Shown: positions 14,826-32,258 of the stretch, piece by piece | How the letters are laid out: every line of letters starts with the position of its first letter | Numbering within the stretch: the stretch's first letter is position 1 | From: an uncultured Methylococcaceae bacterium | GTDB taxonomy: Bacteria; Pseudomonadota; Gammaproteobacteria; Methylococcales; Methylomonadaceae | Length of the DNA stretch: 64,000 nt | NCBI GenBank assembly: GCA_903917345.1 | Contig: CAIXAE010000008.1 | Coordinates: 124,001 to 188,000, forward strand | Direction of reading: 5' to 3' | Notes under the pieces: model-generated | The model's input: the letters and a program-made list of their open reading frames with translations, nothing else | Database searches by the model: none | What the model was told of the DNA's origin: nothing | Translations under genes and position numbers: made by a program

Positions 14826-14841
14826 AGCAGAGACCGTGCCA
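14826..14841 (-). promoter_or_regulatory. Sigma-54 promoter of the PhoB-like gene
   Basis: Minus-strand sequence TGGCACGGTCTCTGCT has the -24 element TGGCACG and, four bases later, CTGCT as the -12 element (one mismatch to TTGC). It is about 75 nt before the ATG, leaving a leader of ~64 nt. Confidence 0.6.
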
Positions 14842-14975
14842 ACTATAAAATCAGATTAATGTATAACATTAATTTTATATCTTAAGATAATGACTTATAG
14901 AATAATTTATTTTATAGTGATAAAGAAATACCCTGTCATAAATGTGCTATAAAAAGAGTAATCATTATTTATAAC

Positions 14976-15021
14976 TATGGCATATCACTTATAAAACAAA
15001 CTGAGTGTGTGATATGACGCA
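14976..15021 (-). promoter_or_regulatory. Paired enhancer-like palindromes upstream of the PhoB-like gene
   Basis: Two imperfect copies of the 16-bp palindrome seen elsewhere in this block, TATGGCATATCACTTA and TGTGTGATATGACGCA, have centres 30 bp apart. They lie 140-180 bp upstream of the sigma-54 promoter, a usual distance for an activator that loops DNA. They also fall just after the stop codon of the amidohydrolase gene. Confidence 0.5.
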
Positions 15022-15041
15022 CCGATAATTCAATCAATAGA

Positions 15042-16268
15042 TCAATGATCATTAATGCCGCTTGAATAATTATTGATGACTACATACCCGCCCGTCATTA
15101 CAAAATCTGGATACTCTAATACCTTAAAATTATCCAGAGGATTCCCTTTTACAGCGATAATATCTGCAGGTGCACCTGCGTGTAATGATCCTAATAAAGG
15201 CAACTTTAGGTATTCTCCAGACTTTGACGTCGCTAATTTCAGTATATCAACGGCCTCCATTTGTGTCGCTTGTTGAATAGAAATTAACTCTTGCGCATCA
15301 ATCCCCCAAGGAATGTCTGAATGTGCAATTTCAGCACCATACAATAGATGCGCCCCTAATTTGGATAATACATACGCGTTATGATTGGCGCCAGGGCATT
15401 TTGAAAGCGTATCTAATGTGGTGACAACAGTGACATTTTTAGAAACCGCCTCGTTCAATAGGGCATCTGATAACTTAGCACAGGGCACGTGCGCCCACTC
15501 ATCAACACCCGCAGTGAGTGCTATCTTTGCTCCTTTTGATTCACCAATATGCGCTGTTACTTTATGATCTAAGTGATGCGCTTCATCCACTATCGCTTTA
15601 ACAAGCGCCTCAGATAGCATCGGCCATGAATTATGACTGTGAACTGATTTTAAAGGGGGCTTTTCATGATGATGCTGGTGCGCATGAATCCATGGCGCCC
15701 CGATTTCTCCACCGGGTTCTAAAGCGATTTTAATGATACTGGCACCGCCTGTAATGAAGTCTTTTACAACTGCCCTCGCCTGCTGCTCAGAAGATACAGC
15801 TATCGCAATATTATCAGCACCCATTATATTAATGGGATACCCATCTGGCGCAGTAATAATGGGCCCAGACGATAAGACCCTTAAATGCCCTTCACCGACT
15901 GTAGTGCTGTTCAATGGCCCCCCTACATCACGTACTGTCGTTATGCCATGCTTTAAGACAACATATTCACTTATATGATGAAACTTAATATGCGCATGTA
16001 AATCAATAAACCCAGGTAATAAAGTAGCATCACCCAAATCAATTTCCTTAACATTACTCAAATTAAAGGCATCCCGCTTATCAATTCGCGTAACTTTTCC
16101 ATCACTAACCAATACGGATATATTTGTTCTGATAGCATCCCCGTCAAAAACACGCAATGCATGTATTAATAGAGGGGGTTGTTGATTACTTTGTACTATA
16201 TTGGTTGAAATTACCGTAAACAGAAACAACCACAACGCTCGTTTAATTGCCAAATATGATGTACGCAT
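15042..16268 (-). CDS. Exported amidohydrolase-family protein with His-rich segment
   Basis: A 408-aa member of the metal-dependent hydrolase (imidazolonepropionase/prolidase-like amidohydrolase) superfamily. It has an N-terminal signal-like hydrophobic segment (ALWLFLFTVISTNIV), the first metal motif HAHIKF after the composite N-terminal domain, a possible bridging Lys in SIIKIALEPGG, His motifs KVTAHIGES and WAHVPC, and a C-terminal LGSLHAGAPADIIAVKGNPL block typical of the family. Between the Lys and the next His is a histidine-dense stretch, HAHQHHHEKPPLKSVHSHN, unusual for the fold. The gene lies downstream of a TonB-dependent receptor on the same strand but behind a strong palindromic terminator. 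I infer a periplasmic enzyme processing an imported or surface-bound compound; the substrate is unknown. Confidence 0.78.
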   Translation of the reverse strand: MRTSYLAIKRALWLFLFTVISTNIVQSNQQPPLLIHALRVFDGDAIRTNISVLVSDGKVTRIDKRDAFNLSNVKEIDLGDATLLPGFIDLHAHIKFHHISEYVVLKHGITTVRDVGGPLNSTTVGEGHLRVLSSGPIITAPDGYPINIMGADNIAIAVSSEQQARAVVKDFITGGASIIKIALEPGGEIGAPWIHAHQHHHEKPPLKSVHSHNSWPMLSEALVKAIVDEAHHLDHKVTAHIGESKGAKIALTAGVDEWAHVPCAKLSDALLNEAVSKNVTVVTTLDTLSKCPGANHNAYVLSKLGAHLLYGAEIAHSDIPWGIDAQELISIQQATQMEAVDILKLATSKSGEYLKLPLLGSLHAGAPADIIAVKGNPLDNFKVLEYPDFVMTGGYVVINNYSSGINDH

Positions 16269-16296
16269 TATCTAATTCTTTAAATAGTGTTTAAAT

Positions 16297-16331
16297 AAAA
16301 AAAGCGGTGTCACCTAGGTGACACCGCTTTT
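16297..16331. terminator. Strong bidirectional terminator between receptor 1 and amidohydrolase
   Basis: A perfect 24-bp palindrome (arm GCGGTGTCACCT) is flanked by A7 on the left and T4 on the right, so it can terminate on both strands. It separates the receptor gene from the amidohydrolase gene and should limit read-through between them. Confidence 0.8.
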
Positions 16332-16360
16332 AGTAAAAATGTAACTCACTTAAACTAAAA

Positions 16361-18631
16361 TTAATACGTAATTTCGATACCACCAAAGAATGAAATGGGC
16401 GCACCTGCATTTAACATGGCATCATTAGCGGTTGCTGTGGGTAAAATATTGGTATTCGCCACATAGACAGTATCCAGTAAATTTCGACCTTCTAAGAATA
16501 CTTTATAGTTTTTATTAGACCAACCTGTTCGCATACCCAATAAACCAAAAGAATCCACCTTGTAAGTATTGGCGTAATCACCCCAGCGCTTACCCACAAA
16601 GTCAAATGTGGGCCCAGCAAAAAAACCACTGATGTGCTGATACATAGCCTCACCTCTTAAGAAATAATCAGGTGCCGCAGGTAGAGCATTATTCCCATAT
16701 ACGGGATCATGATCAAACTTAAAATGATTAAAGGCATAAGACAACATAGGTTTGATCGTATGGACTTCTGTACCATCTAAAGAAAAACTACCCCCAATTA
16801 AGCCTTCAATACCTGCATGGATGGTATTATTAAAGTTATTCGCTATGGGCGAACCACTCGCCGGCGTCACAGATAAAATTTCATTATTAAGCCAAGAATA
16901 ATAGAGTGCTAAATCCCAATTAACACTATTCAATTCACTAATTTTCTCAACCCCGCGTGTACCAATTTCAGCAGAGGTTCCCTCCATCGCTTTTAAATTC
17001 GTCGTTGTTGAGCTGCCGGTTATATTGTCTGCAATATTATAATTAGTTGGCGGTGCATAGATACGACTGATGTTACCGTATAAAGAAGAAGACTTTGTAA
17101 CGTTATACATCAATCCTAAACTAGGGTTAAAACCTTCGTAATCATTTGAGGCCTTACCACCATAAGAATAAAAGTTAGAGGGTCCACCCGGAAAGAATAC
17201 TGAAGCCTGAGCATCTTGCGGTATCGACAATCGCTTATTATTAACATCACGATGAGCAAAAACACCCTGAACAGCCGGTGTTAATGTCCACTTATCCGTT
17301 ATATGCCAATGATCCTGAGCAAATACCTCAATATTATCGGCTTGCTTCTTAACCTTATTGGTCATAGCACCACGAGCGCCTGCATTATTAGTGTAGTTGC
17401 CGCCATTATCTGAATTGGTACCATAATTCAAGCCCAGCAATAAATCATGGTTATCTAAGCGATAATTGTAACGAGCAGTCGTTCCCCAATCTTGCTGGGT
17501 TGAATCGACTAACAAGCTAAACATATCATTTAGACCACCATTAACATTAGGGATGATAACCTTATCAACAATCGGATGATACAGATGCTGATTTTCGAAT
17601 GAAAAGCCTATATCAAGTGAGCTTTTATCATCAATAGTCCATGTGGTTTTATTAGCCACGCGCTCTGTTTCAGTGTTGACTTGATAATTACCACCTACTG
17701 CTTGCGTACTGGCTTGATAAGGATTGGCAGCAAATTGTGCACGTGTTAATTGCCCGGGTAATTGTTGGTTATTTTTGATGTAACTCACGAACGTGCGGTT
17801 AACAACGGAATCAGATAGCTTCCAACCAAAGTTACCGTATAGTCCAACACGGTCTTGTTTGTTATGGGCACGATAACCGTCCCACTCTTTTCCTTCAACG
17901 GTCAACAAACCATCGAATTGATCATTAAACACTTTGCTGACAGTACCCCGTCCTAAAAATTGACCAAAACTACCACCACTCAGTGCAAGCCTCATATCTG
18001 GGCTATCATGTGCCGTAGGCGAAGTAAAGTCGATTGCACCGCCCATTGTGCTCGCGCCATATTTAAAAGCATTAGCACCTCTCGCTACCGTTGCAAAACT
18101 TGACGCTAAAGGATCTATCATGCGGTTATGGTTATTTCCATCCGCTGCTGTCACAGGTAAACCATCTTGTAATATCTTTACACCACTGCCTGCATAATTA
18201 TTAGCATCTAAATTTGAGCCACGACTTGAGATAAAAACCTCATCATTACCACTTTGACTTGTTGCATAAACCCCCGGCGAATATCTAAAGAAATCTGCAA
18301 CGCTCGATACGTTTCTATCATGTAAATCATTAATATTTATTACATTGACACCACCCGGAGTGACAGCAACCTCTTGCTTAGCGGCCTCTAATTTTTGATC
18401 ACTTTTACCCTTGACCTCAAGCGGCTCAAGCATAATAGTATTGGATTGAGATTTCTTAGGCTTAACCGCACTTTTCTTAGCCTTTGCCTTATCATCTTTG
18501 GATTCTGCATTCTTAGTGTTCACCGAATCTTCAGCCATCGCCTCGGGTACCGCATTTAATAAAAGCACTGATGCCATTAAAAGACCACTTGCTTTTAATA
18601 ACTTATCGGCTTGATTATTTATTGATTTCAT
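16361..18631 (-). CDS. TonB-dependent outer-membrane receptor 1
   Basis: A 756-aa receptor with a signal peptide (about residues 1-33), a Lys/Ser-rich linker, a plug domain (about 85-200: GGVNVININDLHD, SSRGSNLDANNYAGSG, GASTMGGAIDFTSP) and a 22-strand barrel ending in the aromatic FFGGIEITY. Such proteins import metal chelates, vitamins or other scarce substrates across the outer membrane using TonB energy. An AraC-family gene diverges from it, a classic pairing for siderophore receptors, and no sigma-54 promoter is visible directly in front of it. The mRNA leader could form a 7-bp hairpin (CTAAAGC / GCTTTAG near 18679-18706). Plug and barrel differ clearly from receptors 2 and 3. The ligand cannot be read from sequence. 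Confidence 0.9.
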   Translation of the reverse strand: MKSINNQADKLLKASGLLMASVLLLNAVPEAMAEDSVNTKNAESKDDKAKAKKSAVKPKKSQSNTIMLEPLEVKGKSDQKLEAAKQEVAVTPGGVNVININDLHDRNVSSVADFFRYSPGVYATSQSGNDEVFISSRGSNLDANNYAGSGVKILQDGLPVTAADGNNHNRMIDPLASSFATVARGANAFKYGASTMGGAIDFTSPTAHDSPDMRLALSGGSFGQFLGRGTVSKVFNDQFDGLLTVEGKEWDGYRAHNKQDRVGLYGNFGWKLSDSVVNRTFVSYIKNNQQLPGQLTRAQFAANPYQASTQAVGGNYQVNTETERVANKTTWTIDDKSSLDIGFSFENQHLYHPIVDKVIIPNVNGGLNDMFSLLVDSTQQDWGTTARYNYRLDNHDLLLGLNYGTNSDNGGNYTNNAGARGAMTNKVKKQADNIEVFAQDHWHITDKWTLTPAVQGVFAHRDVNNKRLSIPQDAQASVFFPGGPSNFYSYGGKASNDYEGFNPSLGLMYNVTKSSSLYGNISRIYAPPTNYNIADNITGSSTTTNLKAMEGTSAEIGTRGVEKISELNSVNWDLALYYSWLNNEILSVTPASGSPIANNFNNTIHAGIEGLIGGSFSLDGTEVHTIKPMLSYAFNHFKFDHDPVYGNNALPAAPDYFLRGEAMYQHISGFFAGPTFDFVGKRWGDYANTYKVDSFGLLGMRTGWSNKNYKVFLEGRNLLDTVYVANTNILPTATANDAMLNAGAPISFFGGIEITY

Positions 18632-18799
18632 AATAAATCCATCATAGTAAGTAAATATAATTAGTAATAACTATTGGACTAAAGCATCGGAAGACGGGGG
18701 CTTTAGCGCAAAATACCGGGCGATGTTACTCAATATTATTTACAGAGATACGGATCATTTATATGTTAAACATAGTTTTTTATATGCTTAAAGTAGGAA

Positions 18800-18846
18800 T
18801 AAGTCATATGACACAATCCATCAATAGATGTGTGTCATATCACTTA
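18800..18846 (+). promoter_or_regulatory. Paired enhancer-like palindromes upstream of the araC-like gene
   Basis: Two copies of the 16-bp element, TAAGTCATATGACACA and TGTGTCATATCACTTA, have centres 31 bp apart (about three helical turns) and lie 55-100 bp before the sigma-54 promoter of the araC-like gene. They also lie in the shared divergent region with receptor 1, so they could serve both directions. Confidence 0.6.
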
Positions 18847-18900: not shown

Positions 18901-18916
18901 TGGCATCAAATTTGCA
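18901..18916 (+). promoter_or_regulatory. Sigma-54 promoter of the araC-like gene
   Basis: TGGCATCAAATTTGCA is an excellent -24/-12 match (TGGCAT-N5-TTGCA with canonical spacing). It predicts transcription from about 18927, so translation must start downstream, supporting the ATG at 18954 over a GTG that overlaps this promoter. Confidence 0.75.
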
Positions 18917-18953: not shown

Positions 18954-19934
18954 ATGAAAATAGAACCCGCATCAGTAAGCCATCGCTTTAACATTAATAC
19001 TTCTGACCTCTCTTTAGCGACCAATCAACACTCGCAACAACATTTAACCCAATTACTACCTAAAGAGATAGGCTTAGGTCAGTCAAACATATATCAACTA
19101 GATACAGATTTAACTTACATTGAATCTCAGTATGTATTATCAAAAGACGTATCAATATCCAGCCAATTAGAATTCGAAACACCTAGACTCATCGTCACAG
19201 TCAGCTTAGACGGAAGCTCACGCTTCTGCAGTCAACAAGGCGAAGATTTTTTATTCACTTCGGGATATACCACCATAACCAAAGTTAATTCGAGTATGGG
19301 TAAACGTGAATACCCTGGGCAACAAACTGTTTCTCAACTTAGATTTTCAATTGGGAAGGGTTGGTTAGATAAATATTTTGGAGAGAATAGCTTTGCACAC
19401 ATATTTACTAAGAACACGATGGAGCTCATAAGTTACAAAAGCACCACCCACTCAGGACTGTTTGCTGCTAGACAATTAGTAGCTTCAAAAAACAAAATAA
19501 ACGTGAGTACGCCTTTTTTACATGGACAAGCGCTGTTACTCTTGTCTTCTGAATTAGATCATTTGATCAATGATTTACCTGATAATGCAATCGACATTCA
19601 TTCTTGCGAAAAAGACAAAAAGATTATCAAACTAGCAGAAGCTATTTTATATGAAGAGTATAAACAACCACCCTCAGTAGAAGAACTAGCAAGACGAGTG
19701 GGCACCAATCAATTCAAATTAAAAAAACTATTTCACCATTACTTAAACACAACACCTTATGGCTTGTTACTTGAAATAAGAATGAACATAGCCTATCAGT
19801 TATTACAAAACACGCACTGTCACGTTAATGAAGCCTCAGAAAAGGTGGGCTATCAATATGCTAATAACTTTAGCAACGCATTTACTAAATATTTCGGTGT
19901 TTCACCCAAGTATATTGCTAAACATCAACCTTAA
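18954..19934 (+). CDS. AraC-family transcriptional regulator (PchR-like)
   Basis: A 326-aa protein with an N-terminal sensing domain and a C-terminal AraC double helix-turn-helix (about residues 230-325). The first HTH is PSVEELARRVGTNQFKLKKL, and the second includes VNEASEKVGYQYANNFSNAF followed by TKYFGVSPKYI. The general arrangement resembles PchR-type regulators that sense iron-chelator complexes and switch on a receptor gene. I chose ATG 18954 because an in-frame GTG at 18900 lies inside a sigma-54 promoter. The gene diverges from TonB-dependent receptor 1 and overlaps the stop of the peptidase gene by four bases. I infer that it activates receptor 1 and is itself made under sigma-54 control. 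Confidence 0.85.
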   Translation: MKIEPASVSHRFNINTSDLSLATNQHSQQHLTQLLPKEIGLGQSNIYQLDTDLTYIESQYVLSKDVSISSQLEFETPRLIVTVSLDGSSRFCSQQGEDFLFTSGYTTITKVNSSMGKREYPGQQTVSQLRFSIGKGWLDKYFGENSFAHIFTKNTMELISYKSTTHSGLFAARQLVASKNKINVSTPFLHGQALLLLSSELDHLINDLPDNAIDIHSCEKDKKIIKLAEAILYEEYKQPPSVEELARRVGTNQFKLKKLFHHYLNTTPYGLLLEIRMNIAYQLLQNTHCHVNEASEKVGYQYANNFSNAFTKYFGVSPKYIAKHQP

Positions 19935-22140: not shown

Positions 22141-23094
22141 CTAGTCATTAATCCCATGTTTACGCATACGGTATAACAAAGTATCGCGGGTTAAGCCTAG
22201 TAACTTAGCTGCTTTGCTACGATTACCATGGGCTCGTTGTAGCGCTTGTTGAATAAGGTCTACTTCTAACGCCTCTAAGCTCAGTCCTGCATCAGGCAAG
22301 GTAAACGCTTCACCTGACGTGATAATCTTAGCCCCAAAAAACTCTCTAGGGAGATGCTCTACATCAATAGAATTGCCCTCAACGAGGATACTCAGGCGCT
22401 CACATAAGTTTTTTAATTCTCTTACATTCCCCGGCCACGGATAATTCTTAAGCACAGTCAAAGCCGATTTATTAAATAGCAGTGGCTCTTTTCCATGTGT
22501 ATCAGCCACCATGCCCATAAAATGATTGATCAGATGCTCAAGATCTTCAATACGTCTAGCGAGTGGTGGTAATTCTAAGGGCACCACATCCAAGCGATAA
22601 TACAAATCGCGTCTAAACTGCCCTGCTTTCACTTGCTGGTTTAAGTCGACATTCGTGGCGGAAATAATGCGTACATCCACATGATAAACTTTAGTATCGC
22701 CCACCGCCAAGCAGTCCCCTGACTCTAAAAAGCGCAGTAACTTTGCCTGCACAGTCAGTGGCAGTGAATTAATTTCATCTAGGAATACGGTCCCCCCATC
22801 AGCGGACTCAAATAAACCCAATTTATGACTGGCCGCACCCGTAAATGCGCCTTTCTTATGCCCAAATAGCTCTGACTCTATGAGGCTTTCTGATAGTGCA
22901 GCACAATTTAGCGTAATAAACGGTTTATCCGCACGCTGACTTTCTCTTTGAATCGCATTAGCAAATAATTCTTTACCCGTGCCTGTTTCACCCTTGATCA
23001 AAACCGTGACATCAGTCGCAGCGACCATTTTGGCATTACGCACAATCGCTTCTAAGGAAGGTGAATGTCCAATGATTGTTTTAAAGTGTCCCAT
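22141..23094 (-). CDS. Sigma-54 enhancer-binding protein without N-terminal regulatory domain (PspF-like layout), intact
   Basis: A 317-aa protein that starts directly with the AAA+ domain and ends in a Fis-type helix-turn-helix. Walker A is GETGTGK at residues 35-41, the sigma-54-contacting loop GAFTGA at 82-87, Walker B VFLDEI around 103-108, and the putative arginine finger is Arg167 (FRRDLYYRL). The DNA-binding helix is NRSKAAKLLGLTRDTLLYR near the C-terminus. All parts needed to remodel sigma-54 polymerase are present. With no receiver or GAF domain its activity must be set by its level or by a partner. Its close neighbour is a degenerate paralogue with a very similar HTH. I infer it activates the sigma-54 promoters in this block. 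Confidence 0.92.
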   Translation of the reverse strand: MGHFKTIIGHSPSLEAIVRNAKMVAATDVTVLIKGETGTGKELFANAIQRESQRADKPFITLNCAALSESLIESELFGHKKGAFTGAASHKLGLFESADGGTVFLDEINSLPLTVQAKLLRFLESGDCLAVGDTKVYHVDVRIISATNVDLNQQVKAGQFRRDLYYRLDVVPLELPPLARRIEDLEHLINHFMGMVADTHGKEPLLFNKSALTVLKNYPWPGNVRELKNLCERLSILVEGNSIDVEHLPREFFGAKIITSGEAFTLPDAGLSLEALEVDLIQQALQRAHGNRSKAAKLLGLTRDTLLYRMRKHGIND

Positions 23095-23194: not shown

Positions 23195-24175
23195 TTATTC
23201 ATTGAGGTGTTGATAATTAAGCCTAGCAGGCTCCGATAAGGCTTTGTAAAGATCAGGGCCACACTTTTTAATACGATAATATAAAGTGTGACGTGTTAAA
23301 CCTAATAATGTAGCTGCCTTATTAATATTGCCTTCTGCACGCTCTAAGGCTTGGCATAAAAGAGAAAATTCAACCTTCAGCCAATCACAGCCAAATTCTG
23401 GAAGCTCATAATAGTAAGGTGCCACCTGTTTAAATGAGTATTTTTTGTATTTACTCGGCATCAGTGTCAAATCAATAACCGTTTTACGGCGCAGAATCGT
23501 TAAGTTTTCAGCCAGATTACGTAATTCCCTTATATTGCCTGGCCAAGGGTAGTGTTCTAAGGCGATAAATACTTCATCCTTTACGTCTAGGCAGCGCAAT
23601 TGATACTGGGCTGCGAAGTACTTTAGATAATAGATAAAGAGTAAGCGTATATCGGCCAAGCGCTCTCTTAACGGAGGTAAATCAAAGCTAAAAGCGCTTA
23701 ATTGTTTGTATAAATCTGTCCTGAAGGCACCTAGCTTAATCGCATCTGGGAGTGAACTATCCGTAGCAGCAATAATTCGTACATTAGTGTTGCACAGTGA
23801 ATCCGCTCCAACAGACTGATAGGCTCCATTCCTCATCACTATTAATAACTTTGTTTGCGTTGCTAAGGGTAATGCCTGTATCTCATCTAAAAACAAGGTA
23901 CCGTTATTGACACTCTCTAGAATACCTTGTGTGTTAATCGTGCCAAACAAAAGGGAATCAATTTGGTCAGGTGAAATAGCGGCACAGTTAAGCACCTTGT
24001 AAGGCTGTTCTGCACGTTGACTTTGTCGGTAGATGACTTTAGCTAACAAGGCTTTACCAGTACCCGTCTCGCCTGTGATTAATACGTTAGCGTCAGTCGG
24101 GGCTACTGTTTTAACCTTGCGTAGTATTTGCGCAAAGTTAGCATCTCGCGTAAAGATCTCTTTTAATACGACCAT
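23195..24175 (-). CDS. Degenerate sigma-54 enhancer-binding protein lacking GAFTGA and arginine finger
   Basis: This 326-aa paralogue of the neighbouring activator has the same length up to Walker A (GETGTGK at 35-41 in both), which supports the ATG at 24175 over a GTG at 24190. It keeps Walker B (LFLDEI near 94-99) and a Fis-type HTH (NINKAATLLGLTRHTLYYR). Between LFG at 76-78 and Walker B it is nine residues shorter, and the whole GAFTGA loop is missing. The putative arginine finger is Gln158 (FRTDLYKQL). Established knowledge: GAFTGA is required to engage sigma-54, and family members without it (TyrR, R. capsulatus NtrC, HupR) act otherwise. I infer a DNA-binding or heteromeric modulator, perhaps an antagonist, of the intact protein. 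Confidence 0.88.
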   Translation of the reverse strand: MVVLKEIFTRDANFAQILRKVKTVAPTDANVLITGETGTGKALLAKVIYRQSQRAEQPYKVLNCAAISPDQIDSLLFGTINTQGILESVNNGTLFLDEIQALPLATQTKLLIVMRNGAYQSVGADSLCNTNVRIIAATDSSLPDAIKLGAFRTDLYKQLSAFSFDLPPLRERLADIRLLFIYYLKYFAAQYQLRCLDVKDEVFIALEHYPWPGNIRELRNLAENLTILRRKTVIDLTLMPSKYKKYSFKQVAPYYYELPEFGCDWLKVEFSLLCQALERAEGNINKAATLLGLTRHTLYYRIKKCGPDLYKALSEPARLNYQHLNE

Positions 24176-24215
24176 TAAAAACTGCAGCACTTGTTTATAG
24201 GAATCTTAAACAGTA

Positions 24216-24231
24216 AACAAGTATCATGCCA
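24216..24231 (-). promoter_or_regulatory. Sigma-54-like promoter of the degenerate EBP gene
   Basis: Minus-strand TGGCATGATACTTGTT matches the -24 element well; the -12 element is TTGT rather than TTGC. It lies about 40 bases before the ATG at 24175 and has paired palindromes upstream. Confidence 0.45.
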
Positions 24232-24373: not shown

Positions 24374-24421
24374 TGTGTCATTTAACACAGTCGCAACGGT
24401 ATTAGCGTGTCATTTCACGTA
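24374..24421 (-). promoter_or_regulatory. Paired enhancer-like palindromes upstream of the degenerate EBP gene
   Basis: TGTGTCATTTAACACA and CGTGTCATTTCACGTA have centres 32 bp apart and lie about 145-205 bp upstream of the sigma-54-like promoter. They match the 16-bp element found at the other sigma-54 promoters of this block. Confidence 0.5.
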
Positions 24422-24493: not shown

Positions 24494-24958
24494 TTATTTT
24501 TGAGTGGGCGCTTCACATTTATTGCCTTTATGCTCGGCACAATGCTCAGGACCACAGGCGTGTGGTTTAGCATTAAGATCGCTTGCGCAATGTTGCGCAC
24601 ATACTTTATCTTTTACATCATGATTAGCATCGCAATGCTTTGTACAATCATGTTCTGCAACGGCTTTGCTATCGCAATGCACTTTACACACTTTATCTTT
24701 TTTAGGTTTTTTTGTTTCTTTACAATGCTTAGCACAATCATGCGCGCCAACACCTTGATGATGTGCACAATGCTGAGCAGATGATTCAGCTGCAGGGGTT
24801 GTTGGTAAAACCGCCACTTCTGGTGTAGCAACAGGTGCTGCCGCTTCAGTGGCTACAACAGGCTCTGCCGTTGCTTCAGTAATAGGTTTTTGTGCTTCAC
24901 AGCCTGTTAACACTAAAGCCATTAAGCTGGTAGCGATAAATAAGTGTCCAATTTTCAT
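24494..24958 (-). CDS. Cys/His-rich lipoprotein with repeated CxxHC motifs
   Basis: A 154-aa protein with a lipoprotein signal peptide ending in the lipobox LTGC (Cys20), an Ala/Pro/Glu/Thr-rich spacer (about 21-60), and a C-terminal half holding twelve cysteines and about as many histidines. Four motifs are C-x2-H-C (CAKHC, CKVHC, CTKHC, CAQHC), with related QHCAHH and CGPEHC. This is not the haem motif CxxCH. The pattern suggests binding of soft metal ions such as Cu, Zn or Ni at the outer or inner membrane surface. It is transcribed from a sigma-70 promoter, divergent from TonB-dependent receptor 2 and just downstream of the EBP region. I know no family with this repeat; a metal buffer or delivery protein for the uptake system is inference. 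Confidence 0.75.
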   Translation of the reverse strand: MKIGHLFIATSLMALVLTGCEAQKPITEATAEPVVATEAAAPVATPEVAVLPTTPAAESSAQHCAHHQGVGAHDCAKHCKETKKPKKDKVCKVHCDSKAVAEHDCTKHCDANHDVKDKVCAQHCASDLNAKPHACGPEHCAEHKGNKCEAPTQK

Positions 24959-25056: not shown

Positions 25057-25095
25057 TAGGTCATATGACACACTTTTAGTGTGTCAAAAAACACA
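25057..25095 (+). promoter_or_regulatory. Enhancer-like palindromes upstream of receptor 2
   Basis: TAGGTCATATGACACA and TGTGTCAAAAAACACA have centres 23 bp apart; together they also form the inverted repeat TGACACAC / GTGTGTCA. They lie 65-105 bp before the sigma-54 promoter of receptor 2. Confidence 0.5.
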
Positions 25096-25160: not shown

Positions 25161-25176
25161 TGGCACACCCTTTGCA
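25161..25176 (+). promoter_or_regulatory. Sigma-54 promoter of TonB-dependent receptor 2
   Basis: TGGCACACCCTTTGCA matches the -24 (TGGCAC) and -12 (TTGCA) elements with exact spacing and is preceded by the usual T. It predicts a start near 25187 and a leader of about 62 nt before the receptor ATG. Confidence 0.8.
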
Positions 25177-25248: not shown

Positions 25249-27768
25249 ATGAATAAAAACAAACCACCTTTTGCACTTAATCCTTTAAATGCCTTGGTTG
25301 TCATGCTTATGATGGCTTCTCCTATTACTATGGCTGCTGATACTGATCAAAAAAATGGCTCAGCAGACCAAGAATCAACCACTAAGAAAGCAACTGACGC
25401 TAAAAGTTCAAAAGCTAGTGCGGATAAAAAAGTATTACCGGAATTGACTGTTACCACCAAAGTGGCTAAACGTGAACAAACAGAAAGCGAAAAATATAAA
25501 CTGCCTAACACGACTGCAACTGTAACAGCTGAAGACATTAAAGAAAGTGTCAATATGACCACTGCAGAAGATGCGGTTAAGTATTTACCCAGCTTAGTGG
25601 TCCGTAGACGTTATATCGGTGATACCAACGCCCCCTTAGCTACAAGAACAACAGGCACCAGTTCTAGTGCGCGTACTTTGATTTACGCAGATGGCATTTT
25701 ACTATCAAGCTTATTAGCCAATAATAATGGTAATACGGGCTCTCCGTTATGGAAAACTATTTCACCGGGTGAAATTGAACGCATGGATATGTTATATGGC
25801 CCCTATTCTGCAGCTTATGCGGGTAACTCTATGGGCGGTGTACTGAACATTACCACTAAAATGCCTACAAAGTTTGAAGCCGGTGCAGATACCCAAGGTA
25901 GTTATTCAAATTACAACCTCTACAACCACCAGGGTAGTGCTTACAACGAGAACTATTCAGCACACATTGGCGATAAATACAAAGACGCCGCCTTTAGGTT
26001 CGATTTCAATCATCTCGATAGTGTCAGTCAACCCATTACATTTCAGACTGGCACAATCCCTGGTAACACCACATCATTAACAGGTGCAACTCCCGTCAAT
26101 GGTGCCATTCTTAGCAAAAACCCAACAAACGCAGCAATTGATGTAATGGGCGCGGGCGCAATAAACCATACACTTCAAGATAATTTCAAATGGAAATTAG
26201 CATATGACATTACCCCTACTATTAAAGCGAGTTACACCTTAGGTATGTGGCAAAATAGTGCCACATCAGGGGTTAATAGCTGGTTGACTAATGCATCTAC
26301 TGGTAGCCCTGTTAATAGTGGCTTGGTAAATATCAATGGAAAAGCTTTTAACTTAAACGGAACAGCAAGCCCTACAAACCTTAATGGCTCAGCCGCCACG
26401 TTCTCACCCTCGCTCATCGATCAAACCACTTGGTCACACGGCATGAGTGTTAAGTCCAATACTGGTGGAAAATTTGACTGGGAATTGGATGGTAGTTTAG
26501 TTGACTTAGGTACAGATACCTCTCGCGCCGCCACTCAAAGCCCACTAGCCACTGCTCAATCACCAACGGGTGGAACAGGTAGAACGACCTATTTAACGGG
26601 CTCAAACTGGAATACCGCCGATGCTAAAGGAATTTGGAGACCGGGCAACTTCTATGGTAACCATGAAGTTAGCTTTGGCTTCCATAACGATTTTTATCAA
26701 CTCGTAAACCCTGTCTATAACACCCTTAACTGGCAAACAGGCGGCAACGCTAACATGTATTCTGACTCAGAAGGCAAAACCGAAACACAAGGTTATTGGG
26801 CTCAAGATGCTTGGGATTTTGCAAAAGATTGGAACTTTACTGCGGGTGCTCGCGTTGAACACTGGAGTGCCTTTGATGGATTAAATTCGGCAATCGTAGG
26901 TACTTCACTTGCCACTGTTAATCAATCCAATCGCAGTGCAGCCAATATCTCACCAAAAGGAAAGTTAACTTGGACCCCCAGAGATGATTTGAAATTAGGT
27001 GCATCGATGGGACAAGCATTTCGTTACCCAACCGCGGCAGAATTGTTTCAAACAACTTCACAAACCACAGGCGGCGTAACTACCTTAGTCAACGGCAATC
27101 CAAACTTAAGACCTGAAAATGTTCTATCATCAGAGCTATCAAGCGAATACTTTCTAAATAAGGGCTCTGTACGTTTAAGTGCCTTTCAAGAAAGGGTCAA
27201 TGACGCTATCTATTCAACGGCCTCACTGTTACCAAATAACACAGTTGCTTCTTATACTACTAATATTGGCCAAACAGATACTTTCGGTCTTGAATTAGCG
27301 GGTAACTTTAAAGATGTATTTATACAAAATTTAAATATGTCCTTCAGTGGCACATGGGCAGATTCAGCTATTACAGAAAATGGTGCAGCTGATGCCGCCC
27401 TCGCTAAGCAAGGTGCAACAGCAGCTAATCCACAGAATGGGACTGCCACTACTGGCAAAATGCAACCTAGAATACCTGCTTACCGATCAACTTTTACGGT
27501 GAGCTATAAACCCATGGACAAACTTACTACCTCAGTCAGCGGACGTTATAGCAGTAAGATGTACAGCAACTTAAATAACAGTGATACCTATGGTAATACC
27601 TACACAGGTAACACAGAGTATTTTGTTGTGGATACTAAAGTCAATTACGAAATCACTAAACAATGGTCCGTTAATGCGGGTATCGATAATATTAATAACC
27701 AAACTTACTGGATCTACCATCCGTTCCCACAAAGAACTTATATGGCGCAGTTAAAGTTTAACTACTAA
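25249..27768 (+). CDS. TonB-dependent outer-membrane receptor 2
   Basis: An 839-aa receptor with a signal peptide (about 1-29, cut after MAA), a Lys/Ser/Asp-rich linker, a plug domain (AEDAVKYLPSLVVRRRYIGD, YGPYSAAYAGNSMGGVLNIT) and a beta barrel ending in YMAQLKFNY. It is a paralogue of receptor 3: both share the plug segment RYIGD(T/P)NAP, SPxW near a GPGEI-type loop, and the C-terminal YWIYHPFPQRT / FYNHPLPLRT block. It is expressed from a sigma-54 promoter and followed after a terminator by a PepSY membrane protein, which in other bacteria accompanies metal-chelate receptors. I infer uptake of a metal chelate or similar compound, ligand unknown. Confidence 0.92.
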   Translation: MNKNKPPFALNPLNALVVMLMMASPITMAADTDQKNGSADQESTTKKATDAKSSKASADKKVLPELTVTTKVAKREQTESEKYKLPNTTATVTAEDIKESVNMTTAEDAVKYLPSLVVRRRYIGDTNAPLATRTTGTSSSARTLIYADGILLSSLLANNNGNTGSPLWKTISPGEIERMDMLYGPYSAAYAGNSMGGVLNITTKMPTKFEAGADTQGSYSNYNLYNHQGSAYNENYSAHIGDKYKDAAFRFDFNHLDSVSQPITFQTGTIPGNTTSLTGATPVNGAILSKNPTNAAIDVMGAGAINHTLQDNFKWKLAYDITPTIKASYTLGMWQNSATSGVNSWLTNASTGSPVNSGLVNINGKAFNLNGTASPTNLNGSAATFSPSLIDQTTWSHGMSVKSNTGGKFDWELDGSLVDLGTDTSRAATQSPLATAQSPTGGTGRTTYLTGSNWNTADAKGIWRPGNFYGNHEVSFGFHNDFYQLVNPVYNTLNWQTGGNANMYSDSEGKTETQGYWAQDAWDFAKDWNFTAGARVEHWSAFDGLNSAIVGTSLATVNQSNRSAANISPKGKLTWTPRDDLKLGASMGQAFRYPTAAELFQTTSQTTGGVTTLVNGNPNLRPENVLSSELSSEYFLNKGSVRLSAFQERVNDAIYSTASLLPNNTVASYTTNIGQTDTFGLELAGNFKDVFIQNLNMSFSGTWADSAITENGAADAALAKQGATAANPQNGTATTGKMQPRIPAYRSTFTVSYKPMDKLTTSVSGRYSSKMYSNLNNSDTYGNTYTGNTEYFVVDTKVNYEITKQWSVNAGIDNINNQTYWIYHPFPQRTYMAQLKFNY

Positions 27769-27790: not shown

Positions 27791-27826
27791 GGGTGAACAA
27801 ACTTTAAGTTTGCTCACCCTTTTTTC
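27791..27826 (+). terminator. Terminator between receptor 2 and the PepSY gene
   Basis: Stem GGGTGA-ACA-AAC / GTTT-GC-TCACCC followed by T7, 22 nt after the receptor stop codon. Since the PepSY gene begins only ~60 nt later without a clear promoter, partial read-through may set its lower expression. Confidence 0.8.
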
Positions 27827-27884
27827 GTTTTATAATTATTCATACACAACCATGTACAGCACTAACAACCAAAAGAAAATTGAT

Positions 27885-29252
27885 ATGATTAAAAAAAGAC
27901 AACTCAGTTATAACACCGTCTGGCGTTGGCATTTTTATGCCGGACTTTTTTGCATACCCTTTGCACTATGGCTATCTGTTACCGGCTCTATCTATTTATT
28001 TAAACCCCAGATCGAAGCTTTTATCGATCAGCCCTATTCAAATTTAATACTCACTGGCCCTGCGGCTTCTGCAAAAGACCAAGTAAATGCCGCTTTAGCG
28101 ACGGTACCCGGCTCCGTATTAAATGCGTACGAACTACCTCAAACACCCACTTCGGCTGTACAAATCTTAGTAGGCAAAGACAAACAATTAGAACGCGTTT
28201 ATGTACACCCACAAACCTTAGAAATCTTGCGTAGCGTTCCTGAAGATGAGCGTTTAATGAAAATCATATTTCATCTACACGGTGACTTATTAGCCGGTGA
28301 TACAGGGTCTTATATCGTTGAACTAGCCGCTTCTTGGATGGTGGTATTAATCATTACAGGCCTCTTTTTATGGTGGCCGCGTAACAGTACAGGCTTAGCC
28401 GGCATTGTGTATCCGCGTTTATCATCAGGTGGTAGAACCTTTTGGCGTGACATACATTCTGTGACCGGTTTATGGATCGCCTTCTTTGTATTATTCCTCA
28501 TCATCAGTGGATTGCCTTGGGCTAAATCATGGGGAAGCATGCTTAAGGAGGTTCGTAAATTTAACCAAACCACTGAAGTTAAACAAGATTGGACCACCGG
28601 CAGATCTTCTGAATTAGCGGAGCGTCAGGCGAATAACACCCCTGCCCCTTCGATGCCTAAGGCCGAACATAATGGCCACGAAGGTCATCACATGTCTAAT
28701 CCTACTGTATTGATAGATTACAGACTATTAGACCAAATCGTGGCGTTGGTTGACGTTCAAAAATTAGAATATCCTGTATTAATATCACCCCCCAATAAAG
28801 CTGGCGCTAATTGGTCAGCAAAATCAGACACACCTAACAGACCCTTGCGCGTTAACCTTAAACTGGACCCCAATACAGCGGACATTGTTGAACGTAAAGA
28901 ATTCTCACAACGTCCTTTACTAGACCGCATCATTGGTGTGGGCGTGGCTGCACATGAAGGCCAGTTGTTTGGTTGGTTTAATCAATTTCTTGGGGTATTT
29001 ACCGCATTAGGTGTGTTTTTACTGGGCGTAAGTTCTGTAGTCATGTGGTGGGGTCGTCGCCCTGCTGGCACTTTAGGCGCGCCACGCACTATTAACAAGC
29101 CTAAACTACCGCTTTATATGGGCATTATTATTTGCGCACTCGGTGTCTTCTTACCCTTACTCGGTGCTTCTTTAATTATGATATTGATACTTGAATTTAC
29201 GCTGCTAAGCAGAGTATCGAGCATTAGTAAGTTTTTGGGTATTAAAGAGTGA
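27885..29252 (+). CDS. PepSY-associated transmembrane protein (putative chelate reductase)
   Basis: About 455 aa, an inner-membrane protein of the PepSY_TM family. The first helix follows NTVWRWHFYAGLFCIPFALW, further helices lie near residues 160-215, and two or three more at the C-terminus, with periplasmic PepSY-type segments between. A His-containing loop (HNGHEGHHMSN) sits in the large soluble part. Members coded next to TonB-dependent siderophore receptors are thought to help release metal by reduction in the periplasm. I use the ATG at 27885; an ATG at 27852 is also possible, while the longest reading begins inside the upstream terminator. It follows receptor 2 and is convergent with receptor 3. 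Confidence 0.82.
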   Translation: MIKKRQLSYNTVWRWHFYAGLFCIPFALWLSVTGSIYLFKPQIEAFIDQPYSNLILTGPAASAKDQVNAALATVPGSVLNAYELPQTPTSAVQILVGKDKQLERVYVHPQTLEILRSVPEDERLMKIIFHLHGDLLAGDTGSYIVELAASWMVVLIITGLFLWWPRNSTGLAGIVYPRLSSGGRTFWRDIHSVTGLWIAFFVLFLIISGLPWAKSWGSMLKEVRKFNQTTEVKQDWTTGRSSELAERQANNTPAPSMPKAEHNGHEGHHMSNPTVLIDYRLLDQIVALVDVQKLEYPVLISPPNKAGANWSAKSDTPNRPLRVNLKLDPNTADIVERKEFSQRPLLDRIIGVGVAAHEGQLFGWFNQFLGVFTALGVFLLGVSSVVMWWGRRPAGTLGAPRTINKPKLPLYMGIIICALGVFLPLLGASLIMILILEFTLLSRVSSISKFLGIKE

Positions 29253-29300
29253 AGGTTTTATTCATGACGTTACTGTGATTTGATTATAAACTTCACATCA

Positions 29301-29332: not shown

Positions 29333-29426
29333 ATGTATCATAGATCGAATGTCATGAGGTTGAAAAGTACAGAAGCGGTTTCCATGATGCAGATAACCAC
29401 ACCATGGAAACCATTTTAGACAGGGA

Positions 29427-31904
29427 TTAGAACTTATATCCCACTTGTGCGAAGAAAGTACGCAAGGGTAATGGATGATTATAGAAAGCCACATTGCCAT
29501 TAATATTATCAATACCCGCAGAAATATGACCTTTCTTATCATTGAAATGATAAGTGCTTTTTAAATCAACATAGACTGATTCATTAAAGGCACCGTAATA
29601 AGCCGCTTGGTTGTCTTTATTATCTGGCTGAGAATACATAGTACTTTGATAACGTGTGCCTACCGATAAATCAATATCTTTACCAACATGATAGGTCGTT
29701 AATTGATTAACCCTATAATTAGGCATTAGAGGCATTTGATTACCCACTAAAGCTTTATTTAATGGATTTGAGATGATTTCTGATCTTAAGATGGTCGCAT
29801 TTAACTTAAAGTCGAAATTTGATTTCATGACGCGATCAAAGTTAGTTGAAAAATCAATACCGTTTGTTTCTACTTCACCGATAGACGACATCACTGAACT
29901 TAAAGTATTACTGCCTGGCACATAGATATACTGGGTATAAATAGCGTCACGAATATTTTCGTGGAATAAATTCAAGCGGACATAGCCATTATCAAAGTCA
30001 TATTCACCCAATAAGTTATGATGTGTACCATCCTCAGGCTTTAAAGTTGAATTAGCAGCAGTACCGCTACCATTTAAAGAACTAGAATTGCCAAACAACT
30101 CATCTGCGACCGCATAACGATAGGCCTTAGCTACAGAGTATCTAAACTTCCAGTTACCCGGTTGATACCCCAAAGAAAACTTCGGCGCCCAATTAGAAAC
30201 TTCTCGGTCTTGTGGATTAAGACTTCCTGTCATATTAGTTGAGGTTAAATAACGGCCGTCTTCCATATTCCAACGTTCAAAACGAATACCGGGTGTTGCA
30301 TCCCAATCTTTCAAGAAACGCCAGCTCACTTGGTTAAACCATGCATAAGAATTGGTTGTACCGCCACTTTGTGAAGCAACAGGTTTTAAGGCATTAGCAC
30401 CACCGCCCACGCCTGTAGAGACAGTATTAGCGCCATAATTACTCAAGTTTTCTTGGGCTATCATTAAGTGTGCACGTTGATATTCGAAGCCCGTTGAATA
30501 CGACAAATCTTTGTTACCAAAGAATTCATCATTGGTAAATGCAGACTTCATGCCTACCCAACCCGTACCTGTATAATGTGACCTTAAGCCCACTTGGCCT
30601 GCGGCTGTTTTATAGATTGGATCTTGTGGGTTGTAACTAGAGGAAAGCGTAGTGTCATTGAGGACATCGAAATAACTGATATTCGTATTGTTGTACCAGT
30701 TACCAAATACGCGACCGTCTAGACCCCAGCCTAAAGTGACGGTTTGACGATTTTGTTGACTGTTACCCCAAGACGTATTGTTGGCTAATTTATAGCCACC
30801 TGCGTTATAACCTGATAATTGTGAACCCCAAACAGTTTGCCCTGCAGCATTGGTTAGAAATGACTGCCCTACGTGCGTCACATCTAAGTCTTCAAAAGCT
30901 GCAACAATCGATGTTTTAAGTTCAGGGTTGATCTCGTACTGACCTTTCCATTTGTATAAATCATCTACCGAATGGTAAATACCATCACTACCCGTTTGTA
31001 ACATAGGCGCACCTGACGCACCACCTGTACCATTACCTTTTGGATTGGTCTCATTTAAAGCACCAAAAGATGGGGTTGCTGCAGCACCCACGGTGGTTAT
31101 ACCTGTAACCACCGTGGGTGTCATAGGTTGACCTTCATTTTCTAAATGATTATAAGAAAAATAGGTACTAAATTTACCAAACTTGTCACCGTAAGAACCA
31201 AATGTTTTGAAGCCTTGTAAGTCTTTATTGGTGCCCATGGAATTATAAGGTTGTAGCATATACGTGGCTTCTGTATACACTTCACGCTTTTGCGGCATTA
31301 AGGTAGTGTAGTTAATAACACCCCCCATAGCATTACCACTGTATTCAGCAGAGAAAGGCCCGCCAATCACTTCAACCGATTTAATCTCGCCAGGACCGAT
31401 TAAGCCCCATCGTGGTGAACCGTTATAACTTGACTGTAATGGATTCCAAATGGGCATTCCATCCATAAATACCATGACTCGTCCCGCTTGATAGGGGCTA
31501 GAACCACGCATACCTACGGGTGCATTAGGATCACCTATATAACGTTGACGTGCGAAAACTCCTGATTCATATTTAACAGAGTCAGCTGTCGTTACAGCGT
31601 TAGTTTTGTCGATATCTGTTTTTCTGACCTTAGTACTGGGCGCAGAAATATTTGTTTTTGAAGGTGTGGCTAGAGGTGATTCTTTAACATCTGTTTTTTT
31701 AACAACCATCTCATCTAATGTTAATTTTGAATCAGAGGCTTTAGTTGCTTGATCCTTCTTACTCGCAACCTGTTTTTTACCTGCATCTTTTGCTGAAGCA
31801 TCAGTTTGTGCAGTGTCCGCAATGGCAAAAGGTGAACTTACCATTAATAAACAGATTAACGCATACCGCTTATTCAGCGGAAAAGGTACTTTATGATCAA
31901 TCAT
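29427..31904 (-). CDS. TonB-dependent outer-membrane receptor 3
   Basis: An 825-aa receptor paralogous to receptor 2, with a signal peptide (about 1-29), a linker with many Lys and Asp, a plug (TADSVKYESGVFARQRYIGD, SAEYSGNAMGGVINYTTLMP) and a barrel ending FFAQVGYKF. It is divergent from tonB-exbB-exbD, and the shared 350-bp region carries two back-to-back sigma-54 promoters around two near-identical enhancer palindromes. Receptor and energy-transducing genes are therefore expected to be switched on together by the same activator. The ligand is unknown; co-expression with a second related receptor suggests two related substrates or strain-specific versions of one. Confidence 0.92.
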   Translation of the reverse strand: MIDHKVPFPLNKRYALICLLMVSSPFAIADTAQTDASAKDAGKKQVASKKDQATKASDSKLTLDEMVVKKTDVKESPLATPSKTNISAPSTKVRKTDIDKTNAVTTADSVKYESGVFARQRYIGDPNAPVGMRGSSPYQAGRVMVFMDGMPIWNPLQSSYNGSPRWGLIGPGEIKSVEVIGGPFSAEYSGNAMGGVINYTTLMPQKREVYTEATYMLQPYNSMGTNKDLQGFKTFGSYGDKFGKFSTYFSYNHLENEGQPMTPTVVTGITTVGAAATPSFGALNETNPKGNGTGGASGAPMLQTGSDGIYHSVDDLYKWKGQYEINPELKTSIVAAFEDLDVTHVGQSFLTNAAGQTVWGSQLSGYNAGGYKLANNTSWGNSQQNRQTVTLGWGLDGRVFGNWYNNTNISYFDVLNDTTLSSSYNPQDPIYKTAAGQVGLRSHYTGTGWVGMKSAFTNDEFFGNKDLSYSTGFEYQRAHLMIAQENLSNYGANTVSTGVGGGANALKPVASQSGGTTNSYAWFNQVSWRFLKDWDATPGIRFERWNMEDGRYLTSTNMTGSLNPQDREVSNWAPKFSLGYQPGNWKFRYSVAKAYRYAVADELFGNSSSLNGSGTAANSTLKPEDGTHHNLLGEYDFDNGYVRLNLFHENIRDAIYTQYIYVPGSNTLSSVMSSIGEVETNGIDFSTNFDRVMKSNFDFKLNATILRSEIISNPLNKALVGNQMPLMPNYRVNQLTTYHVGKDIDLSVGTRYQSTMYSQPDNKDNQAAYYGAFNESVYVDLKSTYHFNDKKGHISAGIDNINGNVAFYNHPLPLRTFFAQVGYKF

Positions 31905-31981
31905 TATTAGTTGTCTCTACTTATAATTATTAGGAAACACGACTACTTCATACAATGAGATAGTCGCAACCTTAGTATTTA

Positions 31982-31997
31982 AGCAAAGTATATGCCA
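31982..31997 (-). promoter_or_regulatory. Sigma-54 promoter of TonB-dependent receptor 3
   Basis: Minus-strand TGGCATATACTTTGCT fits the -24/-12 consensus (TGGCA and TTGC with exact spacing). It lies about 80 nt before the receptor ATG. Confidence 0.75.
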
Positions 31998-32071
31998 ATA
32001 ATATACCTGGCTACAATTTCAATAGGTTAGCATCAATGAGTGAGGATACATTATGCGTGAAAGAAGCAAAC

Positions 32072-32117
32072 TGTGTGATATCACATAGTTTTTTTGCCTA
32101 CTGTGTGATATCACACA
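32072..32117. promoter_or_regulatory. Twin enhancer palindromes between receptor 3 and tonB
   Basis: Two nearly identical sites, TGTGTGATATCACATA and the perfect palindrome TGTGTGATATCACACA, start exactly 30 bp apart. They lie centrally between two divergent sigma-54 promoters, about 75 bp from each. This is the clearest example of the element found at five places in the block. Confidence 0.75.
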
Positions 32118-32181
32118 CCTTATAAACCCTATAATTATTCACAGATAGCCTAATCTATTGATAATAGTGTTTTAAAATTTT

Positions 32182-32197
32182 TGGCATCGAATTTGCT
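32182..32197 (+). promoter_or_regulatory. Sigma-54 promoter of tonB-exbB-exbD
   Basis: TGGCATCGAATTTGCT fits the -24/-12 consensus with exact spacing, about 62 nt before the first candidate start of tonB. Predicted transcription start is near 32208. Confidence 0.75.
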
Positions 32198-32258
32198 TTA
32201 CAATACGTTTTGATCATATTTAAACATAGCTTTCGCAACACCCTTATATATAAGTGAT

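Follow-up and report, generated by a model that had tools for sequence, protein, structure and literature searches.

A palindromic enhancer and a candidate sigma-54 activator point to a scarce-metal regulon, most likely for copper, around TonB-dependent uptake genes of gammaproteobacterial methanotrophs

Copper decides how much methane the gammaproteobacterial methanotrophs oxidize and which enzyme they use. Here, we analyzed a stretch of 64,000 nucleotides (the window) from an uncultured Methylococcaceae bacterium, positions 124,001 to 188,000 of contig CAIXAE010000008.1 in assembly GCA_903917345.1. It carries a cluster of genes for three TonB-dependent receptors, a PepSY_TM protein, the energy transducer set tonB-exbB-exbD and several regulators, among them two genes for proteins of the sigma-54 enhancer-binding protein (EBP) type, EBP1 and EBP2. 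Promoter elements of the sigma-54 type (–24/–12 elements) stand before several of these genes, and upstream of the elements lie copies of a palindrome, TGTGTSATATSACACA, placed as an enhancer would be. The cluster probably belongs to a sigma-54 regulon by which gammaproteobacterial methanotrophs acquire a scarce metal, most likely copper, and whose enhancer would be bound by EBP1. The shared enhancer, the named activator gene and a membrane partner make the question of how these bacteria sense copper and switch on its uptake testable by gene deletion in culturable strains.

The original prediction for this DNA had placed four full –24/–12 matches before the araC-like gene, receptor 2, receptor 3 and tonB-exbB-exbD, and near-matches before the PhoB-like gene and an EBP gene. 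All four exact matches to TGGCAN6TTGC were found (n=4 in the window: 18901(+), 25161(+), 31983-31997(–) and 32182(+)), as were the near-matches at 14827-14841(–), before the PhoB-like gene, and at 24217-24231(–), before the EBP2-EBP1 pair, the latter having GT at –12 instead of GC. The window elements show the –24 GG and –12 GC at fixed spacing by which a sigma-54 promoter is identified. For the araC-like gene the promoter held and the gene start did not: the open reading frame (ORF) as listed, beginning at GTG 18900, runs across its own promoter, and the likely start is an in-frame ATG at 18954. The chance expectation had been put at 0.5 matches per window; the mean in dinucleotide shuffles of the window was 0.95, with four or more matches in 1 of 100 shuffles. 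The genome has one match to rpoN (PF04552, 223.9 bits) and, as a positive control, its nifH ORF has a promoter match, TGGCACACCCATTGC, with its end 50 bp upstream of the ORF. The elements of the window, with the span from enhancer to –24/–12 element, are as follows.

32182..32196, + strand: –24/–12 element TGGCATCGAATTTGC of tonB-exbB-exbD; exact match; conserved island with G010 and G048; span 95 bp
31983..31997, – strand: –24/–12 element TGGCATATACTTTGC of receptor 3; exact match; conserved island; span 105
25161..25175, + strand: –24/–12 element TGGCACACCCTTTGC of receptor 2 and, by position, also of the PepSY gene behind it; exact match; span 96
18901..18915, + strand: –24/–12 element TGGCATCAAATTTGC of the AraC-like gene; exact match; span 85
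14827..14841, – strand: –24/–12-like element TGGCACGGTCTCTGC of the PhoB-like gene; near-match; span 195
24217..24231, – strand: –24/–12 near-match TGGCATGATACTTGT of the EBP2-EBP1 pair; span 173

The palindrome was found by reading the regions upstream of the window promoters. Allowing up to 3 mismatches, the window contains 8 copies where 0.76 would be expected; 0 of 100 shuffles reached 8, and 8/8 copies lie upstream of the six elements (four –24/–12 matches and two near-matches). Over the whole genome, 7 of the 9 palindromes with up to 2 mismatches are at window promoters, a proportion that is partly circular since the motif was read from there. Enhancer copies often stand in pairs 20–31 bp apart, and the sites of the window are listed here.

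32072..32117: enhancer pair TGTGTGATATCACATA / TGTGTGATATCACACA between the divergent receptor 3 and tonB genes, from the palindrome scan
25057..25095: enhancer pair between the divergent Cys/His lipoprotein and receptor 2 genes, upstream of both, with 2 and 3 mismatches
18800..18846: enhancer pair between the divergent receptor 1 and AraC-like genes, 2 mismatches each
15006..15021: enhancer site TGTGTGATATGACGCA of the PhoB-like gene, from the palindrome scan
24374..24389: enhancer site TGTGTCATTTAACACA upstream of the EBP2-EBP1 pair, from the palindrome scan

No –24/–12 element was noticed by eye before the Cys/His lipoprotein gene, despite its upstream enhancers. Four other places in the genome with palindromes at 2–3 mismatches (L204, L205, L206 and L208) have no clear regulon gene. 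At the first of them (G000:C9:70445-70459, i.e., L204:6445), an exact –24/–12 match lies 105 bp from a poor palindrome, and the ORF that it precedes (363 aa) shows a rhodanese-like match.

Since the motif had been derived from the window itself, relatives provide its independent test, and the comparison set was 61 genomes, i.e., this genome and 60 relatives. At up to one mismatch, 140 palindromes were found in 42/61 genomes (3 of the sites in this genome), against 3 in the reversed control. Composite sites of the form enhancer-N50..80-TGGN8TTGC numbered 17 in 12/61 genomes, one of them being that of the window's tonB, against 0 in the control. Fifteen of the 17 had spans of 95–98 bp and the other two of 86 bp (binomial against a uniform distribution, p 5e-12, the related genomes being non-independent), and in the 16 distinct composites the unconstrained positions after TGG were C in 10 and A in 10, as sigma-54 promoters are expected to have. 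Within the window, the four exact matches have spans of 85–105, which fit this main spacing or differ from it by roughly one turn of the helix. The long span of the PhoB-like gene is itself conserved: two promoters of G045 have TGGCACGGTGTCTGC at 196 and 194, the 196-span promoter preceding a PhoB-like homologue (62%), and the homologue in G007 (59%) has a span of 182. The AraC homologue of G045 has the enhancer and CGGCGTGATTTTTGC at span 95.

Conservation was also seen at the level of single regions and gene sets. When the receptor 3-tonB region was aligned with those of G010 and G048, both –24/–12 elements and the inner enhancer appeared as conserved islands, the outer enhancer being less conserved. 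The same promoter set in relatives, which had been suggested as a check, was found: a locus of G010 (L099) repeats nearly the same gene set, with PepSY, receptor 3 and tonB-exbBD each behind enhancer and –24/–12 element, and there EBP1 (cut by the contig end) adjoins exbD in convergent orientation. Other genes preceded by enhancer and –24/–12 element (≤1 mismatch), at varying spans, are the homologues of receptor 2 in G018 and G050, those of both receptor 3 and PepSY in G048, the PepSY gene of G043 and, in G016, a fragment of receptor 3. The predicted sigma-54 uptake regulon that includes tonB-exbBD is thus upheld in silico by the enhancers, their fixed spacing, rpoN and the conserved receptor 3-tonB region. 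It is not confined to the cluster, as had been thought, since the same sites occur in other Methylococcales, where they also stand before CorA-like and MauG-type genes.

EBP1 consists of an AAA+ domain and a Fis-type helix-turn-helix (HTH), has the Walker A and GAFTGA motifs and is without a sensor domain; PspF is another sigma-54 activator that lacks an N-terminal domain. Among the orthologues many have GSFTGA, and that of G031 has GAFSGA. The closest named relatives of EBP1 are from Methylococcales, with Methylomonas lenta (65%) and Methylomicrobium sp. wino1 (64%) among them, and Thiothrix-type metagenome-assembled genomes come next (51–54%). We take the host of the window to be a methanotroph of this gammaproteobacterial order. 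With a cut-off of E 1e-100 or better, EBP1 is present in 46/61 genomes, and the enhancer (≤1 mismatch) is found in 38/46 genomes with EBP1 versus 4/15 without (Fisher 1.3e-4, ignoring descent); the presence of nifH has no association with the enhancer (p 0.58). The candidate for reading the palindrome, by predicted binding, is EBP1 rather than NifA, because EBP1 tracks the enhancer, nifH does not, and the enhancer of nifH differs in its half-site. The prediction that the cluster has its own activators is therefore retained for EBP1, which keeps the loop that contacts sigma-54, and not for EBP2, which has lost it.

As an activator of this type comprises only AAA+ and HTH, its control must come from a partner. 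In the same genome, an EBP1 paralogue (82%, L031) adjoins a DsbD_2 (PF13386) membrane protein, and a DsbD_2 homologue stands beside EBP1 in L033 (by Pfam) and in L046, L048, L050, L103, L104 and L192 (by BLAST). In 5/5 genomes of family f6 within the comparison set (G029, G035, G040, G055 and G058) DsbD_2 and EBP1 are fused in one ORF of 562–608 aa, the domain content having been determined by Pfam for G040. The f6 fusion is divergent from a TonB-type receptor, with an enhancer (≤2 mismatches) in 5/5 cases and a –24/–12 element (≤1) in 4/5. The motifs H-C-x-x-M-C and W-x-W-x-x-C are invariant in 38 DsbD_2 sequences, some from near-identical loci, and may be general to PF13386. If DsbD_2 senses metal for EBP1, the f6 protein, sensor and activator in one, would be a new architecture for a sigma-54 activator. 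The fusion ORFs are the following.

L049:8963-10663, DsbD_2-EBP1 fusion
L188:6315-8141, DsbD_2-EBP1 fusion
L189:4264-5964, DsbD_2-EBP1 fusion
L190:5870-7558, DsbD_2-EBP1 fusion
L191:5214-6908, DsbD_2-EBP1 fusion

Enhancer clusters in G045, G007 and G043 encode di-haem proteins of the MauG type (Pfam CCP_MauG) and sulfotransferase-TPR proteins, along with a family whose members have 317–331 aa. A profile of six members of this family, compared with the PDB (177,635 sequences), gave one match at E ≤0.1, which was CorA of Methylomicrobium album (4bz4, E 0.036; domain alone E 0.091), and the invariant W-x-H of the family aligns to CorA W62/H64, i.e., the copper-site Kyn62/His64. PDB searches with two single target proteins (254 and 319 aa) returned nothing at E 0.01; just the profile reached CorA. 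A regulatory site is in this sense shared with CorA/CorB-type genes, the CorA link consisting of a marginal match and aligned ligands. Further, G026 has an MtrC-like multihaem cytochrome behind the enhancer and a one-mismatch –24/–12 element, the G010 cluster includes a protein of PF09948 ('copper chaperone'), and in both G010 and G045 the regulon is found together with Cys/His-repeat lipoproteins.

Consistent with this, CorA of M. album is reported to be copper-repressed and co-transcribed with the MauG-like CorB (PMC3912023). For M. capsulatus, an earlier study describes cluster CRC1 (MCA0421-0447), where a TonB system and a MauG protein occur with multihaem cytochromes, marks putative sigma-54 promoters there, and reports that such gene types rise without copper (PMC4831470). 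The quoted MCA0424 promoter has an exact match in three genomes of one genus, among six searched. In one of these three, the Methylococcus-type genome G054, an EBP1 copy, a MauG-type gene (53% to that of G045), an ExbB-like gene and a TonB receptor lie 31 kb from an MCA0424-type promoter, the palindromes at this EBP1 locus being weak (2–3 mismatches); because of this proximity, EBP1 would sit at or near a CRC1-type cluster. The order of receptor and PepSY_TM genes is that of a Bordetella copper-starvation operon (PMC13038864). From the whole we infer that the metal of the regulon is copper, and that the regulon would be on when copper is low.

The –24/–12 matches might instead be coincidences in AT-rich intergenic DNA, with the genes under Fur, sigma-70 or AraC control. 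Across the genome (2.48 Mb) TGGCAN6TTGC occurs 32 times, versus 10 in a reversed-pattern control and ~37 scaled from the window shuffles, so the genome-wide scan that had been proposed as a check came out roughly random for the bare motif. When 30 of the 32 were classified as loci (the 31st is the nifH promoter, and the classification omits the 32nd), 19 were inside ORFs other than araC, one was intergenic with no gene ≤300 bp downstream, and 10 were positioned as promoters (araC counted from ATG 18954), 4 of those 10 being in the window cluster. Since the genome count is near the shuffle-scaled number and many matches lie inside ORFs, the motif alone is suggestive only. The cluster has 4 matches in 13.3 kb against 0.17 expected (Poisson p 3e-5, for an interval drawn round the matches themselves); with the 64-kb window as the unit, the Poisson p is 0.01. 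The regulon conclusion survives the random motif rate because of enhancer coupling and conservation: with 17 composites versus 0 in the control, fixed spans and the conserved islands at receptor 3-tonB, chance matching was rejected and is hardly credible. Fur control was rejected as well, the best Fur-like sites in five intergenic regions having 6–7 mismatches to the consensus and being matched by 47–134 of 200 shuffles; the scan for rival control sites covered Fur and not sigma-70. Control of the window by FecI/FecR was rejected too, as receptors 1 and 2, the two of the three receptors scanned with Pfam, have no STN domain and no FecI/FecR is among the Pfam-scanned neighbours. It is similarly very improbable that NifA governs the promoters and that the enhancer is a form of TGT-N10-ACA. 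The palindrome formally fits this consensus, and the genome does have nifH with its promoter; however, the NifA-like enhancers at the nifH promoters of G000, G007 and G045 have a different inner half-site, TGTTGGGTATCTAACA, 7 mismatches from the palindrome, and composites occur in genomes without a nifH match (G010, G013, G048, G029, G055 and G058). NifA control was rejected on the absence of the nifH-type enhancer at the cluster and the lack of co-occurrence with nifH.

A different alternative keeps the sigma-54/EBP1 regulon and changes its signal to iron, lanthanide, oxygen or redox state, which we consider unlikely though far from negligible. PepSY and TonB families often serve iron too. 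The characterized PepSY_TM proteins are ferri-siderophore reductases (PMC13038864), and the PDB matches of receptor 2 (the one searched of the three receptors) are haem, colicin I, siderophore and pseudopaline receptors. G024 has the enhancer and a one-mismatch –24/–12 element before a FecR and STN-receptor set. Against such a signal stand three points: targets of the CorA-like and MauG-type kinds, the named relatives of which are repressed by copper in M. album (PMC3912023) and M. capsulatus (PMC4831470); the invariant Cys/His/Met of DsbD_2; and Fur-like sites no better than shuffles in the five intergenic regions.

A copper-responding regulon read by EBP1 is the interpretation we prefer, and a number of observations weigh against it. 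Genome-wide, the bare –24/–12 motif does not clearly exceed chance, and neither does the palindrome at up to 3 mismatches (32 copies versus 27 in the reversed control), so that weak palindromes elsewhere in the genome are mostly chance. Two of the six window promoters, with spans of 195 (PhoB-like gene) and 173 (EBP pair), are off the main spacing; a scan of positions 18632-18800 found no GG-N10-GC element on the strand of receptor 1; and no enhancer or promoter site is listed directly before the receptor 2 homologues L100 and L203 or the receptor 3 homologue L095. The association of EBP1 with the enhancer has exceptions, as 8/46 genomes with EBP1 are without the enhancer (≤1 mismatch) and 4/15 without an EBP1 match have it, and at ≥90% completeness it weakens to 31/38 versus 3/8 (p 0.02, ignoring descent). 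The EBP1 copies in L047, L184, L187 and L193 have no adjoining DsbD_2, and EBP1-DsbD_2 loci such as L033, L034, L046, L048, L103, L104 and L192 have no enhancer in the examined stretch. The enhancer of G024 stands before the FecR/STN-receptor set and also upstream of secretion genes. The CorA match is by itself marginal, and MCA0318, another MauG protein of M. capsulatus, falls without copper (PMC4831470).

Starting from the sites, their spacing and conservation, the downstream genes, the anatomy of EBP1 and its neighbourhood or fusion with DsbD_2, we infer all later steps of a mechanism as follows. With metal sufficient, EBP1 would be kept inactive, presumably via the DsbD_2 membrane protein, which would report metal status to it; in this genome the DsbD_2 gene lies beside the EBP1 paralogue, not beside the window's EBP1. 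When the metal drops, EBP1 hexamers on the palindromes would touch sigma-54 polymerase at a distance of ~80 bp, opening the promoters of the receptor, PepSY and tonB-exbBD genes and also those of the AraC-/PhoB-like regulator and EBP genes. Because these regulator and EBP genes carry the same sites, feed-forward and self-control would result. A broader proposal, which we offer tentatively and at less than even confidence, is that EBP1 and DsbD_2 are the copper regulator of gammaproteobacterial methanotrophs, with a membrane-tethered sensor, one order-wide enhancer regulon and the loop-less EBP2 as a brake. Copper leaving the HCxxMC site of DsbD_2 would then release or activate EBP1, and the order-wide regulon would cover CorA-like and MauG-type proteins, TonB receptors and tonB-exbBD.

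EBP2 is 41% identical to EBP1, with a similar recognition helix; it keeps Walker A and the Fis-type HTH, and in the alignment has a nine-residue gap at the position of the GAFTGA loop. Alone, the EBP2 of the window cannot be expected to open sigma-54 promoters. On balance we lean towards EBP2 being a brake on EBP1, which it may modulate via mixed hexamers or by competition for the enhancer site. That EBP2 is rather a co-activator in mixed hexamers with EBP1, as HrpR is with HrpS, is quite conceivable, at somewhat under an even chance: EBP pairs without N-terminal domains act as hetero-hexamers elsewhere (PMC9542535), and GAFTNA is kept in the second EBP of G016, G011 and G049. This is countered by the loss of the whole GAFTGA loop from the window EBP2, and by the distribution of EBP2-type relatives (E 1e-75 or better), which are in just 6/61 genomes, so activation elsewhere does not need EBP2. 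Other loops of these relatives are GAYTDA in G010 and GAFTGA in G047, which is closer to EBP1.

The original prediction had found no known system to match the cluster, whereas it resembles the copper-responding clusters of M. capsulatus Bath, which share a TonB system and putative sigma-54 promoters and raise MauG-type and multihaem cytochromes without copper; the accessible text names no enhancer, activator or cross-species regulon (PMC4831470). Unlike those clusters, the window has three receptors and a PepSY gene, with no multihaem cluster noticed. A second parallel is with the copper-repressed proteins CorA/CorB of M. album BG8 and MopE/SACCP of M. capsulatus: in G045, G007 and G043, CorA-like W-x-H proteins and MauG-type proteins are encoded downstream of this enhancer and –24/–12 element or within the cluster that carries them. 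In contrast to the known proteins, the relatives match CorA marginally, and none was noticed in the window. The CrtA-CrpH operon of Bordetella pertussis also has a TonB-dependent receptor followed by a PepSY_TM gene and is induced by copper starvation; the accessible part of that report does not mention sigma-54 control (PMC13038864), and the window PepSY is placed in the PepSY_TM superfamily only. The VnfA1 regulon of Azotobacter vinelandii is a precedent for sigma-54 control of TonB receptors, its activator governing TonB-dependent receptors linked to metal acquisition, and differs in its VnfZ and vanadium control, its nitrogenase setting and its targets, tonB-exbBD not being among them in the accessible part of PMC9542535. 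HrpR/HrpS, in the same source, resemble EBP1 in having AAA+ and HTH only (PMC9542535); unlike them, EBP1 appears to have a DsbD_2 membrane protein as partner, fused to it in family f6. A 2025 survey predicted sigma-54 control of the TonB energy transducer in Flavobacteriia and called it unconfirmed (PMC12316311), and such control appears to be unconfirmed in print. Sigma-54 promoters are already known as predictions in the M. capsulatus copper clusters (PMC4831470), and the enhancer, activator and regulon are new to the literature we found: no description of the enhancer, EBP1, the DsbD_2 fusion or the whole regulon was found in the open-licence literature, with no search aimed at DsbD_2.

The genes of the window cluster are given below, ExbB and ExbD having been named from sequence, size and position after tonB.

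14059..14751, – strand: PhoB-like response regulator; homologues in the G045 cluster (62%) and in G007 (59%)
15042..16268, – strand: amidohydrolase; 39% and 44% homologues behind the enhancer in G051 and G024
16361..18631, – strand: TonB-dependent receptor 1 (Pfam scan)
18954..19934, + strand: AraC-type regulator, from the likely true start ATG 18954
22141..23094, – strand: EBP1, sigma-54 activator (Pfam PF00158, PF02954)
23195..24190, – strand: EBP2, EBP-like without the GAFTGA loop, similar HTH (Pfam and alignment)
24494..24958, – strand: lipoprotein of Cys/His repeats that probably binds metal; members of its family lie next to EBP2 in G010 and within the cluster of G045
25249..27768, + strand: TonB-dependent receptor 2 (Pfam scan)
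27810..29252, + strand: PepSY_TM protein (PF03929), putative metal reductase, the function by analogy only
29427..31904, – strand: TonB-dependent receptor 3 (NCBIfam receptor models)
32259..34172, + strand: tonB 32259-33065 (TonB by model), exbB 33099-33758, exbD 33762-34172

The PepSY protein has no PDB relative at E 0.01, and the Cys/His-repeat lipoprotein (24494-24958) has no Pfam family. In its family (L082:12402-13031, L098:1965-2522) the Cys/His repeats are of the HDCTKHC type and vary in number, and a second homologue lies in the same genome at L206:52-345. At L088:7752-9497, the genes behind an enhancer and a one-mismatch –24/–12 element include FecR and a TonB receptor of the STN type, as though ECF-sigma surface signalling were governed by sigma-54. 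An enhancer stands before an operon with cytochromes c, exosortase and DUF3485 at L092:4839-11769, and an enhancer and one-mismatch –24/–12 element precede an operon at L216:5974-9447. Several regulon proteins, including the CorA-like relatives, carry tails that we take to be PEP-CTERM-like. Just downstream of the uptake cluster, window positions 37433-40465 hold genes for NAD-linked hydrogenase-like subunits, as judged by eye.

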